From positions 1-64,000 of the forward strand of contig NZ_JACDNQ010000014.1 in assembly GCF_013839515.1 (NCBI RefSeq): a stretch of DNA of 64,000 bases, written 5' to 3'. Positions within the stretch are counted from its first letter, which is position 1. Each line of letters starts with the position of its first letter. This document shows positions 29,800 to 40,236 of this stretch, one piece after another. This DNA comes from Natronomonas salinimetallica. GTDB lineage: Archaea; Halobacteriota; Halobacteria; Halobacteriales; Haloarculaceae. The notes under the pieces were generated by a model that made no database searches, was not told where the DNA came from, and saw only the letters and a program-made list of their open reading frames with translations. The translations under genes were made by a program, and so were the position numbers.

Positions 29800-30426
29800 A
29801 TGCCACGGTCGTACTCGGTTGGCGAGTTCGCGGATGAACTCGGTGTTCACTCCCAGACTGTGAAACGATGGTGTCGTAACGGCGACCTTGACTACACCCG
29901 AACACCGGGCGGAGAACGACGGATTCCACACCGAGAACTCCGCCGACTTGCAGGCGATACTCGTCCAACAGACCGTGTTGCCCTCTACGGTCGCGTCTCA
30001 AGCCACGGCCAGAAAGACAACGGTGACCTCGACCGGCAACTCGACCGACTCACGGACTACGCTCACGACCACGGTTGGAGCGTCGAAAACACCTACACCG
30101 ACGTTGGCAGTGGCCTCAACGAAGACCGACGCGGCCTCAACTCCCTCCTCGATGACGTGCAAGACGCCGACTACGGCCGGGTTCTCGTCACCTACGAAGA
30201 TAGGCTCACTCGCTTTGGCTTCTCGTATCTTGAACGGTATTTCGACTGCTACGGTATCACCATCACCGTCATCGAAGACGAAACGGACAAATCAGCACAG
30301 GAAGAACTCGTTGACGACCTTATCAAACTCGTTGCCAGCTTCAGTGGCAAACTCTACGGTATGCGCTCCTCGAAAAAACAACAGGTCGTCAACACCGTCG
30401 AATCCGAGGTGAAACCCGATGAGTAA
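29800..30426 (+). CDS. tnpA: IS607-type serine recombinase TnpA
   Basis: A 208-residue site-specific recombinase. Residues 1-55 are a MerR-like helix-turn-helix (YSVGEFADELGVHSQTVKRW). The catalytic domain follows with the Ser nucleophile in ALYGRVSSHGQ, then VTYEDRLTRFGF and a helical C-terminus. A TATTTATAAG box lies about 35 bases upstream. It overlaps tnpB by eight bases. It appears intact. Confidence 0.95.
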   Translation: MPRSYSVGEFADELGVHSQTVKRWCRNGDLDYTRTPGGERRIPHRELRRLAGDTRPTDRVALYGRVSSHGQKDNGDLDRQLDRLTDYAHDHGWSVENTYTDVGSGLNEDRRGLNSLLDDVQDADYGRVLVTYEDRLTRFGFSYLERYFDCYGITITVIEDETDKSAQEELVDDLIKLVASFSGKLYGMRSSKKQQVVNTVESEVKPDE

Positions 30427-32140
30427 CCACCTCTCGCTCCCAATCCGTTTGCCAGACGAGGATGCCGAGCGATTCGAGCGACTGGCAATACTCACTCGTC
30501 GTGTCGCCAATTATGTCCTCAAAAACCACTGGACGCCAGTCCATCTAGACGGCATTGCCGACGCATCGCATCAGGCGTGGAAATACTTCGATGAGCACGA
30601 ACCGTTCGAAGAACTCGACCTGTATCTCCCCTCGCGGTTTCGACGGTGCATCTTGCAGAAAGTCGGTGAAACGCTTCGGAGTCACGCCGACCGCCGAGAC
30701 GCCTTTCAGTCCATCCAGAGCGTGTTGCCCGACCACAAAATCCGACGAATTCACCGCCGACACATCAAAGACCAGCTCTGGGACGACGGCGACTACCTCT
30801 CGTCAGGCTACGTGGACATCCTCATCGACCAACTCAACAGCTACTACGACCGTCACGGCACGTATCCAGACACGTATCTTGAGATGCAGGACTGTCCTGA
30901 GTATGACAGCGGCGTACTCCCGTACTCTGCGGACGACGGCCCGACATCGGGTCAAGCTGTTAAATACCAGTACGACACCGATAGCGAGACGCTGGCCATC
31001 CGACTCAAAACACCGGACACACTATCGCCGGAGACACGAGGTGACTGGTCGTGGACAGAGTACGAACGTGGCGGCTACGAGGCGTTTCATGACCTCCTCG
31101 CTCACGGCGATCTCTCGGCTCCCGAGTTCCAGCCCTCCCGTCGTAAAACCGGTGCCGCCTACTACGAACTCTCCTTCCCCGTCGAAGTCGAACACGCAAA
31201 GACGACTGACAGCACCGACTGCGTGTTGGCGCTCGACGCCGGGATGCGAAAAGACATGACTGCCGTGGTGGTTACTGACGATGGCGAACAGCGGTCTACG
31301 CCACAGTTTATTCAGTTTACTGACCGCAAGAAGATGCGGCGACTCCACCGCGAACGCACCCGACTGAACGACCGACTTGCCGCGTTGCGCCGTGATGGTC
31401 GCTCGCATACTGACGAGTTCGCGCACCTCCACAGCGAATACGAACGGGTAAACGCCAAAATCCAGCACAAGCGCGAACAACTGACACACGACGTAGCAAA
31501 TCAGATTCTTGCAATCGCACTCCTATACGACGTAGACGCCATCGTTCACGAGGATTTGCGCTCGCTCTCACCGCCGCGAGGTGAGTGGGAGTTGTCGTGG
31601 GAGTTGTCGTCATGGGCGCGGCGTGACATCATCGAGAACATCGAATACCGGGCAGAGTGTGCCGGTCTGACTGTTGAACGAGTCTTCCCACAGGGAACGA
31701 GTCGGTCGTGTCCCCGGTGTGGTTCGACCGGCCACACCTGCGAGTCACCCGACCATCACGAGGAACTGTGGTGGGGCGGGCACTTTCGCTGTGACAACGC
31801 CCGGTGTGACTTCGAAGGCGACCGCGACTACATCGGGGCGCTGAACGTGGCTCGCGTGTTCTTCAGTGAGACGGACGAGCTGGACCACGGTTTCACGTCC
31901 TCCTATACGGGGGATTCTGAAATCGTGCTAGCTGGCCGTTCCGCTGGTACGCGGCTCACGTTCGGGTCTGGAATCGTCACCTACGAACCCGATCAGGCAA
32001 CGGCGATCACTGGTGGTGGGTCGGCTGTCATAGCGCCTGCTGTCGCCGTGCCCGAGTCGAATGCGGATAGTAGCGATGGACGTGGCCCGGTCGTCCAACA
32101 GTGTACCCGTTTCTTACGGTGTACTACTGAAAGCTACTGA
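30419..32140 (+). CDS. tnpB: IS607-associated TnpB, long form
   Basis: A 573-residue TnpB, longer than the 435-residue IS605-type protein in this window because of an enlarged N-terminal half. RuvC residues are in VLALDAGMRKDMTAVVV, IVHEDLRSLSP and EGDRDYIGALNVARV. The zinc ribbon is CPRCGSTGH…CDNARCDFEG, with an insertion (SPDHHEELWWGGHF). The C-terminal ~70 residues are low-complexity and may be read from right-end DNA. All acidic residues are present. Confidence 0.92.
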   Translation: MSNHLSLPIRLPDEDAERFERLAILTRRVANYVLKNHWTPVHLDGIADASHQAWKYFDEHEPFEELDLYLPSRFRRCILQKVGETLRSHADRRDAFQSIQSVLPDHKIRRIHRRHIKDQLWDDGDYLSSGYVDILIDQLNSYYDRHGTYPDTYLEMQDCPEYDSGVLPYSADDGPTSGQAVKYQYDTDSETLAIRLKTPDTLSPETRGDWSWTEYERGGYEAFHDLLAHGDLSAPEFQPSRRKTGAAYYELSFPVEVEHAKTTDSTDCVLALDAGMRKDMTAVVVTDDGEQRSTPQFIQFTDRKKMRRLHRERTRLNDRLAALRRDGRSHTDEFAHLHSEYERVNAKIQHKREQLTHDVANQILAIALLYDVDAIVHEDLRSLSPPRGEWELSWELSSWARRDIIENIEYRAECAGLTVERVFPQGTSRSCPRCGSTGHTCESPDHHEELWWGGHFRCDNARCDFEGDRDYIGALNVARVFFSETDELDHGFTSSYTGDSEIVLAGRSAGTRLTFGSGIVTYEPDQATAITGGGSAVIAPAVAVPESNADSSDGRGPVVQQCTRFLRCTTESY

Positions 32141-36649: not shown

Positions 36650-39031
36650 GTGACGCTCGATATCTCGATTGCCGATCCGTCGTGGGTCGACGACCGCCGG
36701 GACGGGTTGGCCGTCGTCGACGCTCGCGACCGGCGGGACTACGAAACGCTCGGACACGTCCCGGGGGCGGTGAACGTCCCCTTCGAGTCGATCCGGGACA
36801 GCGGATCCGACGCCGCGGGACATCTGCCCGACCCGGAAGCCGTTCGGGAACTGCTCTCCGCGGCCGGGATCGAGCACGACGACCCCGTCGTCGCCTACGA
36901 CAACCGACGCGGCGTCGAGGCGGCGAGACTCCTCGTGACGATGGCGGTCTACGGCCACGAGGGACCGTTGTACCTACTGGACGGCGATTTCGACGCCTGG
37001 CAACGGGCGTATCGAACCGAACAGTCCGTACCGGATCCGGGGGTCTCCAGGTACGGATCGGTATCGCTCCGTGCGTCGGCGCTCGCCGACCGCGCCGACG
37101 TCGAGGCGGCTATGGGGAACGGGACGACACTCGTTGATACGCGCACCGCGAGCGAGTACGAATCCGCACACGTTCCGGGGGCGGTCCACCTCGGGTGGGA
37201 AGCCTTCGTCGACCCCGAGACCGGACGGCTCAAACCCGAAGCCGAACGGCGGGCGATACTCGAGGACCGAGGGCTCGATCCGGACGATCCGATCGTCCTG
37301 TACTGTAACACCGCCCGACGGCTCAGCCACACCTACGCGGTCCTCTCGGCGCACGGCTACGGCCACGTCCGGTTTCACGAGGGCGATCTCACGGGACTCA
37401 TCCGCGAGCACTCACCAGACTGGGATCCAAAGCAGCTGTACGAGGGCGTCCGGGAGGTCGCCTCCGAGGGCTACGACGCGCTCGCCGAGGAGCTCGGCGA
37501 GGACGTATTCGGGCGGTTGCACCTCATCGGGCTGTATACGGTCCGACAGGACGGGTACTTCATGCTTCGGACGAAGGTCCCCGGCGGGCGACTGACCGCA
37601 GAACAGGCCAAGACCGTCGGACGGATCACGGAGGAGTTCGCGACCGCCCCCGAACGCCACGGCGGCACGGAACAAAACCCCGTCTTCGGCGACGGGTTCC
37701 TCGACGTGACGACGAGACAGGGGATCCAGCTACACTGGATCCGGATCGAGGACATGCCCGAGATCTGGGATCGCTACGAGTCCGTCGGTCTGACGACGAT
37801 CCAGGCGAGCGGGAACACCCTGCGAAACGTCGTTACGTGCCCGACCGCGGGACGTATCGCCGGTGAGACCGACGTCAACGCGATCGCGGAGGAGCTCGCG
37901 GACGCGTTCGAGGGGAGCCGCCGCTACGCCAACCTCCCCCGGAAGTTCAAGATCGGCCTCTCGGGCTGTCAGGAGAACTGCGCGCGCGCCGAACTGCAGG
38001 ATCTCGGCTTCGTTCCGGCGACGAGGGACGGCGAGGAGGGGTTCGCCGTCAAGGTCGGCGGCGGTCTCTCGGACGGGCCGCGAGCCGCGACCGACCTCGG
38101 GATCTTCGTCGCGCCGGACGAGGTCGTCGACCTGTCCTTGGCCGCGGCGGATCTCTTCATCGACCACGGCAGCTATCTCGATACCGCGGTCAACCGCCTG
38201 AAGTACGTCGTCGACGAGTGGGGTACCGAACGGTTCCGCGAGGAGCTACGGAGCTACGCCCCGTTCGAGTTCGAGCCCTACGACCGAACCCCTTCGAGTG
38301 ACTACCGCGGCGATCACGTCGGGATTCACCACGAGACGGGCGATCGATACTACGCCGGCTGTACCCTGCCGACCGGGCGGATCGGCGGCGGCGACCTGAT
38401 CGAGTTCGCCGACCTCGCCGATCGTTACGGTGACGGCGAACTCCGAACGACGGCGAATCAGAACCTCGTCGTCCCGGGTGTCCGTGGCGACACGCTCGAG
38501 TCGTTCCTCGGCGAGTCTGTCTTAGACGAGTATAGCCCCACCCCGGGGCCGTTCTCGCGGGGTATCGTCACCTGCACCGGGCGGGAGTTCTGCAAGTACG
38601 GCGTCGTCGAGACGAAGAGCCGCGGCCACCGGTGGGCCCGCGAACTCGACTCCTGGCTCGAATCGAGCGACGTCCCAGACGCCGCGGTTCCCGACGCGGT
38701 CCGGATCCACATGAGCGGCTGTTCGGCCTCCTGTGCCCAGCCACAGATCGCCGACATCGGGCTTCGAGGGGAGGCATACCGGGACGAAACACGCTCGAGC
38801 CAGGCGGTCGATATCGGTTTGGGCGGCGATCTCGGCCAACCACGGTTCGTCGAGTGGGTCTCCGGACGCGTCCCCGTCGAGGACGTTCCCGACGCGACGA
38901 AGCGGCTGCTCCGTCGGTTCTTCGAGGAGCGACGGGCGGACGAATCCTTCGCCACCTGGACGGATCGGACGGACGCCGATCGACTCGACCGGATCGTCCG
39001 TACCGACCGAGCGGTCGCGGGGGCGGACTGA
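36650..39031 (+). CDS. Tandem rhodanese fused to siroheme sulfite/nitrite reductase
   Basis: A 793-residue fusion read from a GTG. Residues 1-125 and 140-260 are two rhodanese domains. The first lacks the active Cys (VVAYDNRRGVEAAR, Asp84 in its place); the second has Cys219 in IVLYCNTARRLSH. Residues 283-793 are a nitrite/sulfite reductase. Its first half has SGCQENCARAELQDLGF. The second half carries the full siroheme-[4Fe-4S] ligand set: Cys642, Cys648, Cys691 and Cys695 (TCTGREFCKYG, MSGCSASCAQPQ). The rhodaneses suggest a sulfur substrate such as thiosulfate feeding sulfite reduction; nitrite remains possible. It overlaps the next gene by one base. Confidence 0.9.
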   Translation: MTLDISIADPSWVDDRRDGLAVVDARDRRDYETLGHVPGAVNVPFESIRDSGSDAAGHLPDPEAVRELLSAAGIEHDDPVVAYDNRRGVEAARLLVTMAVYGHEGPLYLLDGDFDAWQRAYRTEQSVPDPGVSRYGSVSLRASALADRADVEAAMGNGTTLVDTRTASEYESAHVPGAVHLGWEAFVDPETGRLKPEAERRAILEDRGLDPDDPIVLYCNTARRLSHTYAVLSAHGYGHVRFHEGDLTGLIREHSPDWDPKQLYEGVREVASEGYDALAEELGEDVFGRLHLIGLYTVRQDGYFMLRTKVPGGRLTAEQAKTVGRITEEFATAPERHGGTEQNPVFGDGFLDVTTRQGIQLHWIRIEDMPEIWDRYESVGLTTIQASGNTLRNVVTCPTAGRIAGETDVNAIAEELADAFEGSRRYANLPRKFKIGLSGCQENCARAELQDLGFVPATRDGEEGFAVKVGGGLSDGPRAATDLGIFVAPDEVVDLSLAAADLFIDHGSYLDTAVNRLKYVVDEWGTERFREELRSYAPFEFEPYDRTPSSDYRGDHVGIHHETGDRYYAGCTLPTGRIGGGDLIEFADLADRYGDGELRTTANQNLVVPGVRGDTLESFLGESVLDEYSPTPGPFSRGIVTCTGREFCKYGVVETKSRGHRWARELDSWLESSDVPDAAVPDAVRIHMSGCSASCAQPQIADIGLRGEAYRDETRSSQAVDIGLGGDLGQPRFVEWVSGRVPVEDVPDATKRLLRRFFEERRADESFATWTDRTDADRLDRIVRTDRAVAGAD

Positions 39032-40236
39032 TGTCGATCGAACGCTCCCCCGGCGTGCCGGAGATCGAGACCGATCCGAGAGATCGGATCGCCGAAGCCC
39101 GCGAACCGACCGAAAAGACGTGGTTCCGGAACCTCGACGAGGCCGTCATCGAGGCCGATCGATGTGTCCAGTGTGGCAGTTGTATGGCGGCGTGCCCCTC
39201 GGATTCGATCGGTATCGACGAGGAGACGGGCCGGCCGACGCTCGTCAGGATGTGTACCGGCTGCTCGCGGTGTTGGGACTTCTGTCCCCGAAGCGGCCTG
39301 CGCTATGAGCGGCTAAACGGCCTCGAAGGCTCCGAGGCACGGTCCGCGTACGCGGTGAGCGCGGCCGGCGACCACGAGGGACAAAACGGGGGCGCGGTCA
39401 CGGCGTTGCTCGCCGGGCTACTCGAGGCCGGCGAGATCGACGGCGCGGTCGTCGTCGGCGACGGCGGTGATGCGCTGACCGGCGAGCCGGTCCTCGCGAC
39501 CACGCGGACGGAGCTGCTCGAAAGCGCGGGCAGCAGCTATACCCAGACGATGCAGCTCGGACGGGTCGACGAGCTGATCGCCGACAGCGGCCTCGACGAC
39601 CCGGACATCGCGCTGGTCGGTACCCCGTGTGTCATCCAGGGGGCGGCCGCCCTGGATCGGCTGCAGTACGACGACGAGTTGGCCTCGGTGACGCTTACCA
39701 TCTCGTTGGTCTGTACGCGGAGCTTCGCGTACGAACGGCTCCGTTCGTTGCTCATCGGACGCGGCGTCGAGATCGACTCGATCGATTCGCTCGAGATCGA
39801 CGGCGGCGACCTGATCGCGAGAGACGACGGCGGCGCGCGGCTGCTCACCGAGGACGTCGAGGCGTTCGACGCCGCCGCCCTCCGTGGGTGTGCGGAGTGT
39901 TCGGACGCGGTCGGCGAGGCGGCCGACATCTCGGCCGGAAACGTCGGCAGCCCGGACGGGAAGACGACGCTTCTGGCCCGTACCGAGGCGGGCGAAGCCG
40001 CGATCGATGCGGCCACCGCGGATCTCGACCCCGACGAGCTGGACGAGACCGCGGCGCTCGAGGGATTCGCCGACTGGAACCGCCGGCAGGCCGAGGCATC
40101 GATCCCCCGCGATCTCGACGCCGATGCTCCGCTTTCGATCACCTACACGGAACACCACGACGCCTACGACGGAACCGATCGCGCCCCCGAATCGCTGAAC
40201 CCCGCCCGCGTCCACCAGTACGAGGAGTGGTGTTGA
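39031..40236 (+). CDS. FrhB/FdhB-type F420 oxidoreductase with two [4Fe-4S] clusters
   Basis: A 401-residue protein. The N-terminal ferredoxin domain has CVQCGSCMAACP (Cys45, 48, 51, 55) and CTGCSRCWDFCP (Cys75, 78, 81, 85). The rest is an F420 hydrogenase beta-subunit-like domain: HEGQNGGAVTALLAGLLEAG, GTPCVIQGAAAL, LVCTRSF and CAECSDAVGEAADISAGNVGS. It probably passes electrons from reduced F420, via FAD and the clusters, to the sulfite reductase it overlaps by one base (TGATG). This is analogous in parts to methanogen Fsr, where both lie in one chain. The pairing is inferred. Confidence 0.87.
   Translation: MSIERSPGVPEIETDPRDRIAEAREPTEKTWFRNLDEAVIEADRCVQCGSCMAACPSDSIGIDEETGRPTLVRMCTGCSRCWDFCPRSGLRYERLNGLEGSEARSAYAVSAAGDHEGQNGGAVTALLAGLLEAGEIDGAVVVGDGGDALTGEPVLATTRTELLESAGSSYTQTMQLGRVDELIADSGLDDPDIALVGTPCVIQGAAALDRLQYDDELASVTLTISLVCTRSFAYERLRSLLIGRGVEIDSIDSLEIDGGDLIARDDGGARLLTEDVEAFDAAALRGCAECSDAVGEAADISAGNVGSPDGKTTLLARTEAGEAAIDAATADLDPDELDETAALEGFADWNRRQAEASIPRDLDADAPLSITYTEHHDAYDGTDRAPESLNPARVHQYEEWC

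Follow-up and report, generated by a model that had tools for sequence, protein, structure and literature searches.

A tandem rhodanese–sulfite reductase fusion paired with an FrhB-type protein

In Fsr group I of Methanococcales (PDB 7NP8, 7NPA), one chain joins an F420H2-oxidase half of the FrhB type to a short Dsr-like sulfite reductase (SiR) domain with an inserted ferredoxin (PMC10229431), and a 2021 review of F420 lists methanogens, anaerobic methanotrophic archaea (ANME) and Archaeoglobales as the only groups with the FrhB coupling family (PMC8498797). The FrhB of the ethanotroph F420-reducing carbon monoxide dehydrogenase (CODH) and formylmethanofuran dehydrogenase (8RIU, 8RJA) is a free-standing chain adding F420 to another enzyme. 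Here, we describe 2 overlapping genes of the haloarchaeon Natronomonas salinimetallica, located in a window of 64,000 nucleotides (positions 1 to 64,000 of contig NZ_JACDNQ010000014.1), that encode a tandem rhodanese–siroheme/[4Fe-4S] SiR fusion and an FrhB-type F420H2 oxidoreductase subunit. The pair is conserved, and its sequence features indicate that it is probably a sulfite reductase of the assimilatory type that depends on F420H2 and carries its own thiosulfate sulfurtransferase.

Gene 1 (36650 to 39031, 793 residues) starts with GTG and gene 2 (39031 to 40236, 401 residues) with ATG; all features given here are on the forward strand. Base 39031 is common to both genes (TGATG), which therefore overlap by one base in different frames, exactly as in a preliminary description made from the letters alone. 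Asp84, Cys219, Cys642, Cys648, Cys691, and Cys695 also stand where that description had put them, and every domain that it had proposed to search for was matched by Pfam. Gene 1 matched Rhodanese and NIR_SIR in 2 stretches each (9e-33 and 2e-49, respectively) and NIR_SIR_ferr (6.5e-34); gene 2 matched FrhB_FdhB_N, FrhB_FdhB_C and dicluster models of Fer4. The AlphaFold model of gene 1 (mean pLDDT, the per-residue confidence score, of 84) retrieved NirA, nitrite reductase (NiR) and SiR structures and thiosulfate sulfurtransferases with Foldseek.

We searched the rhodanese part of gene 1 and FrhB across 293 Halobacteriales genomes. The fused architecture is present in 25 of them, with about 50% to 75% identity in the SiR part, which is far beyond chance. 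A neighbourhood survey, suggested by the preliminary description as a check, found the pair conserved: in all 25 fused-gene genomes an FrhB of the window type lies directly downstream on the same strand, in varied surroundings. One relative (G249, L169:9418-10265) has a broken FrhB, with an internal stop and parts missing, and the fused SiR gene is absent; it is a natural case of joint decay.

The preliminary description had seen in the pair the activities of Fsr split over 2 genes. The same pair of activities is indeed predicted, and the FrhB half of Fsr is homologous to gene 2, with a ferredoxin dicluster, a third cluster and a flavin adenine dinucleotide (FAD) fold. However, the window pair is not simply an Fsr split in two, because its reductase half is of the double-repeat NirA/ferredoxin-SiR type and not Dsr-like: NirA/NiR models and structures cover the double repeat over its whole length, while the match to Fsr is weak (1.3e-8). 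Moreover, the window reductase has no inserted ferredoxin by Pfam, and a tandem rhodanese and a C-terminal Trp-Cys tail on FrhB are added. Reductase and FrhB are likewise separate genes in the relatives, with the same separation as in the window.

The reductase half has a sulfite-type anion site

The reductase half (residues 266-759, 37445 to 38926) is a double-repeat siroheme reductase of the NirA/SiR type by NCBIfam, Pfam and PDB matches, NCBIfam PRK09566 scoring below its equivalog cut-off. It has its double-repeat fold and siroheme/[4Fe-4S] ligands in common with Mycobacterium tuberculosis NirA (1ZJ8) and plant NiR (3B0G, 2AKJ), and differs from ferredoxin-type NirA/SirA by its constant FrhB gene partner and by the rhodanese fusion. 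The predicted siroheme-[4Fe-4S] ligands Cys642, Cys648, Cys691, and Cys695 (CX5C...CX3C, 38573 to 38734) are invariant among fused relatives.

We aligned the anion sites of 116 proteins, including E. coli CysI and NasA-linked NirA. Results showed that Arg356, Arg392, Lys432, and Lys434 of gene 1 (37715 to 37951) form the RRKK pattern of sulfite reductases, which was found in 28/28 fused and 84/84 non-fused reductases of the paired type and also in the control, E. coli CysI. Fsr has the same anion site and the same CX5C...CX3C ligands, and its structures revealed that these 4 anion-site residues are conserved across sulfite reductases (PMC10229431). Nitrite reductases have Asn where gene 1 has Lys434 (N226 in tobacco; 3VLX is the N226K mutant), and the NirA of the window genome, whose neighbours are two NasA genes and a NarK, reads RRKN, with Asn at the second lysine position. 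The 2 tandem NasA genes next to NirA and NarK (L173:10991-15304) both score over the haloarchaeal NasA cut-off, while NasA was not found beside the window SiR-FrhB pair.

By its RRKK site and CX5C...CX3C ligands, gene 1 groups with siroheme sulfite reductases of the assimilatory type; having Lys434 instead of Asn and no NasA beside it, it does not group with the NirA/NasD nitrite reductases. We considered a nitrite reductase, a reading that is weakened by Lys434, by the cys context of the bacterial homologues described below and by the separate NasA-linked NirA. Sulfite is likely to be the physiological substrate of the paired reductase, as judged from these residues and from gene context.

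Three further cysteines in the first pseudo-symmetric half (Cys397, Cys440, and Cys444, 37838 to 37981) are nearly invariant in paired reductases and absent from the NasA-linked NirA and the unpaired SiR of the window genome. An extra cluster bound by them was not adopted, as no fourth ligand was identified and the triad also occurs in a relative's nitrite-type protein with RRKN. In addition, the sulfite-type motif PRKFK occurs in a gene of Haloferax mediterranei plasmid pHME505 (L196:3771-7191) that overlaps an FrhB gene and is called "ferredoxin--nitrite reductase", probably a misnomer. This host is genetically tractable and has a non-fused pair (E6P09_RS15580/15575).

FrhB and the electron donor

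The preliminary description had placed gene 2 in the FrhB group of F420 oxidoreductases, and Pfam, sequence and fold all support this assignment. The best PDB match by sequence is Fsr (7np8, 4e-42), and the model (pLDDT 81) is closest by Foldseek to the FrhB of the ethanotroph F420-CODH (8riu_B, 8.7e-27), whose partner enzyme differs from that of the window, followed by Fsr (5.5e-23); chlorophyll reductase HCAR (8.8e-15) is clearly less close. Two clusters had been described, and the ferredoxin dicluster does stand: Cys45/48/51/55 and Cys75/78/81/85 (39142 to 39291) match Fer4 models and are invariant in 62 relatives. The count of 2 does not, as a third set, Cys200/228/287/290, is predicted within the FrhB N- and C-domains (PF04422 and PF04432, 39367 to 40020), the FAD/F420 oxidoreductase part. 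These cysteines are invariant in the same 62 relatives and align with Cys in Fsr, whose F420H2-oxidase domain holds one [4Fe-4S] in the solved structure (PMC10229431).

Gene 2 thus combines FrhB_FdhB N- and C-domains, a four-Cys cluster and closest likeness to F420 enzymes in an organism that makes F420, the features of the F420-coupling family. We also looked for F420 ligase. All 29 pair-bearing bacterial genomes and all 25 fused-pair genomes have it, compared with 3 of 14 controls, all three archaea; this co-occurrence supports, but does not prove, the F420 link, because haloarchaea, like many Actinomycetota, produce F420 in any case. An ordinary ferredoxin-dependent siroheme reductase, in which FrhB would be an HCAR-like flavin/Fe-S relay fed by ferredoxin with F420 uninvolved, is very unlikely: the best matches of the SiR half are indeed ferredoxin NiR of plants and M. 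tuberculosis NirA, and HCAR, of FrhB fold, is a structural match, but FrhB is closer by fold to F420 enzymes than to HCAR, and every carrier genome tested has F420 ligase. On these grounds, F420H2 is very likely the electron donor of the pair.

Distribution of the pair and origin of the fusion

We also searched contigs with gene 1, using patterns from the window protein and keeping the best 80, which biases the results towards close relatives. Among the matches listed, FrhB is downstream of SiR in 77/79 loci, the other 2 being both near contig ends; the pairs belong to haloarchaea, Actinomycetota (mostly Acidimicrobiales), a Rubrobacter and Chloroflexota. A second FrhB clade, 43% to 48% identical, is found in many further genomes and adjoins a non-fused SiR of about 560 to 640 residues at the intact loci that were fetched. 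In non-fused haloarchaeal pairs (L182:8767-10347, L170:8815-10683, L051) we noticed an N-terminal FrhB extension with a CGCGxxCGC motif, absent from the window FrhB.

The 28 fused rows come out as a single group (SH-aLRT branch support of 99) in a quick maximum-likelihood tree of the SiR domain, on which the fusion state changes once, compared with 25 changes in shuffles. On this tree, the fused reductases are one clade. Because the SiR-FrhB pair is widespread without any rhodanese, the rhodanese is not central to the system but an addition of single origin in haloarchaea. In one Chloroflexota locus, SiR, FrhB, a small open reading frame and a tandem rhodanese encoded by its own gene follow one another.

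Among 43 bacterial SiR-FrhB loci searched with tblastn, 39 have at least one sulfate-assimilation or siroheme gene alongside, with CysH in 33, CysD in 15, CysN in 14, precorrin-2 dehydrogenase in 29 and uroporphyrinogen methylase in 5, identities that were checked by Pfam and NCBIfam. This context and the anion-site signature support sulfite and assimilation. In 33/43 bacterial and in 0 haloarchaeal loci, the gene for a conserved small protein of about 110 residues, with the motif WLW...RRELWLWL.GDR.W...GL.GR..RR, lies close to FrhB or immediately after it; the protein had no Pfam match (L050:8315-8635, L015, L036, and other bacterial loci) and is a candidate third component. Haloarchaeal loci showed no conserved operon partner past the SiR-FrhB pair, the neighbours varying by lineage. 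In the window, positions 29800 to 32140 hold an IS607-like element, composed of a serine resolvase with a MerR-type helix-turn-helix and, after it, an overlapping TnpB/Cas12f-like gene.

The rhodanese half and the source of sulfite

An inactive first and an active-type second rhodanese domain had been proposed, and Pfam, the predicted fold and an invariant loop bear this out. The first domain (36662 to 37015, approximate boundaries) has Asp84 at the Cys position and is predicted to be catalytically dead; the second (residues 149-249, 37094 to 37396, PF00581) carries the putative catalytic Cys219 (37304 to 37306) in the loop CNTARRLS. This arrangement, an inactive first and a Cys-bearing second domain, is that of thiosulfate sulfurtransferases, and PDB tandem sulfurtransferases align over residues 17-248 of gene 1. 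The loop (residues 219-226) is invariant in 23 fused relatives and near-identical to that of stand-alone haloarchaeal tandem-domain thiosulfate sulfurtransferases (CNTARRIS/L), whose rhodanese pair is about 50% identical; in gene 1, this pair is fused in frame to SiR. Ratios of nonsynonymous to synonymous substitution rates were 0.11-0.33 for rhodanese, 0.07-0.22 for SiR and 0.11-0.12 for FrhB. A decayed passenger was rejected considering the invariant loop and the purifying selection.

Rhodaneses have many sulfur-trafficking roles. SiR-FrhB could thus be an F420H2-dependent sulfite reductase whose rhodanese works downstream or sideways, either transferring sulfane sulfur to protein or thiol acceptors that serve Fe-S, tRNA or cofactor thiolation, or protecting the cell from persulfides, and feeds no sulfite to the siroheme, in line with a pair that is complete without rhodanese in many haloarchaea and bacteria and with a rhodanese ratio somewhat above that of SiR. 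We consider this rather unlikely, as the active loop, which does not vary over the fused clade, hardly differs from the one in stand-alone tandem sulfurtransferases, the fold matches are thiosulfate sulfurtransferases, and the fusion to SiR together with the co-occurring FrhB tail argues for direct coupling.

We asked where the sulfite could come from. Neither ATP sulfurylase, nor CysN over cut-off, nor CysH over cut-off was found in the 25 fused genomes, 2 of which have CysH matches below cut-off. The window genome encodes a 322-residue homologue of the 3'-phosphoadenosine 5'-phosphosulfate reductase family (L187:1363-2331) that is weakly CysD-like and was not counted as sulfate activation; the same genome gave neither a CysN hit over cut-off nor ATP sulfurylase. 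According to the genome paper of Natrinema J7-2, sequenced haloarchaea have no sulfate route; the paper also passes on a proposal in which sulfide is made by thiosulfate sulfurtransferase together with sulfite reductase (PMC3402447). We consider the chance that thiosulfate is the source of sulfite slightly better than even.

The FrhB tail ends in a conserved cysteine

The C-terminal tail of FrhB (NPARVHQYEEWC, 40198 to 40233), with Cys401 as last residue, occurs only in partners of rhodanese-fused reductases: FrhB ends in NPARxxQYExWC, with a terminal Cys, in 29/29 loci of the fused clade vs 0/91 other loci. The last 12 residues have a mean conservation of 97%, compared with 62% to 66% in residues 331-375, and are modelled as a terminal helix of low confidence. 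At the sequence level, the tail shows constraint, because it is invariant across FrhB partners that are about 50% to 60% identical.

The tail is a candidate for docking on the rhodanese or for accepting its sulfur, and Cys401 as sulfur acceptor is a tentative possibility. A bolder version is doubtful: an F420H2-powered thiosulfate reductase capturing both sulfur atoms, in which sulfite would go to the siroheme and the sulfane sulfur to a mobile Cys401, from which it would be reduced or delivered. FrhB would then be both electron feeder and sulfur carrier, a combination that we know of in no F420 enzyme.

A proposed route from thiosulfate to sulfide

We lean towards the pair being an assimilatory sulfite reductase that depends on F420H2 and generates the sulfite itself, from thiosulfate. 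Cys219 would take the sulfane sulfur of thiosulfate, freeing sulfite next to the siroheme domain. FrhB would oxidise F420H2 on its flavin and pass the electrons via its [4Fe-4S] clusters to the siroheme-[4Fe-4S] centre, where sulfite would be reduced to sulfide for cysteine synthesis. The persulfide on Cys219 would be passed to an acceptor, the best candidate being the terminal Cys401 of FrhB.

Several points weigh against this proposal. The donor could be ferredoxin, because HCAR has the FrhB fold and is, as far as we know, not an F420 enzyme. The SiR-FrhB pair occurs elsewhere without rhodanese, many fused genomes also hold a non-fused pair, and the association of tail and fusion counts as one event, because both arose in one clade. 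The missing sulfate activation is consistency and not a test, because non-fused haloarchaea lack it too, so that there is no contrast between fused and non-fused genomes. Natrinema J7-2 grows with sulfate as sole sulfur source (PMC3402447); therefore, another sulfur route exists. Finally, the substrate cannot be read from residues and homology alone, because an Fsr relative, ANME FsrII, reduces nitrite but not sulfite with F420H2 as donor (PMC9295563); tblastn found no cys or siroheme gene beside the pair in any haloarchaeal locus.

These last 2 points, together with the plasmid location of some fused pairs and the activity of Fsr on both sulfite and nitrite (PMC10229431), would fit a detoxification enzyme that relieves stress from sulfite, thiosulfate or nitrite, the role thought to be played by Fsr group I (for sulfite) and ANME FsrII (for nitrite). 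Such a role is unlikely, considering the RRKK site, the bacterial homologues within sulfate-assimilation and siroheme clusters, and the separate NasA-linked NirA of the window genome.

Implications for sulfur assimilation

Public annotations call these proteins "rhodanese-like domain-containing protein", "ferredoxin--nitrite reductase" and "Coenzyme F420 hydrogenase/dehydrogenase", and we found no paper describing the SiR-FrhB pair in haloarchaea or bacteria in the open-licence literature, a scope that leaves subscription papers and preprints outside. A 2024 survey of archaeal fusions reports in one sentence, for its cluster 195.2, rhodanese fused to 19 of 529 halobacterial NirA proteins, and says that rhodanese-NirA may have a role in sulfur metabolism (PMC11237513). 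This cluster is very likely the same fused family as gene 1; it is named NirA there, and the parts of the survey available to us do not mention the FrhB partner, the sulfite signature, the relatives in bacterial cys clusters or the tail Cys.

The strongest new points are the wide occurrence of the SiR-FrhB pair, which extends to cys clusters of bacteria, and the terminal Cys that goes only with the fusion. Because the same pair sits in bacterial sulfate-assimilation clusters, our results suggest that SiR-FrhB is a widespread F420-dependent assimilatory sulfite reductase of Actinomycetota, Chloroflexota and haloarchaea. For haloarchaea, the thiosulfate route had only been a proposal, with separate enzymes (PMC3402447); the fusion joins both proposed enzyme types and names a likely electron donor for the supply of sulfide in these organisms.

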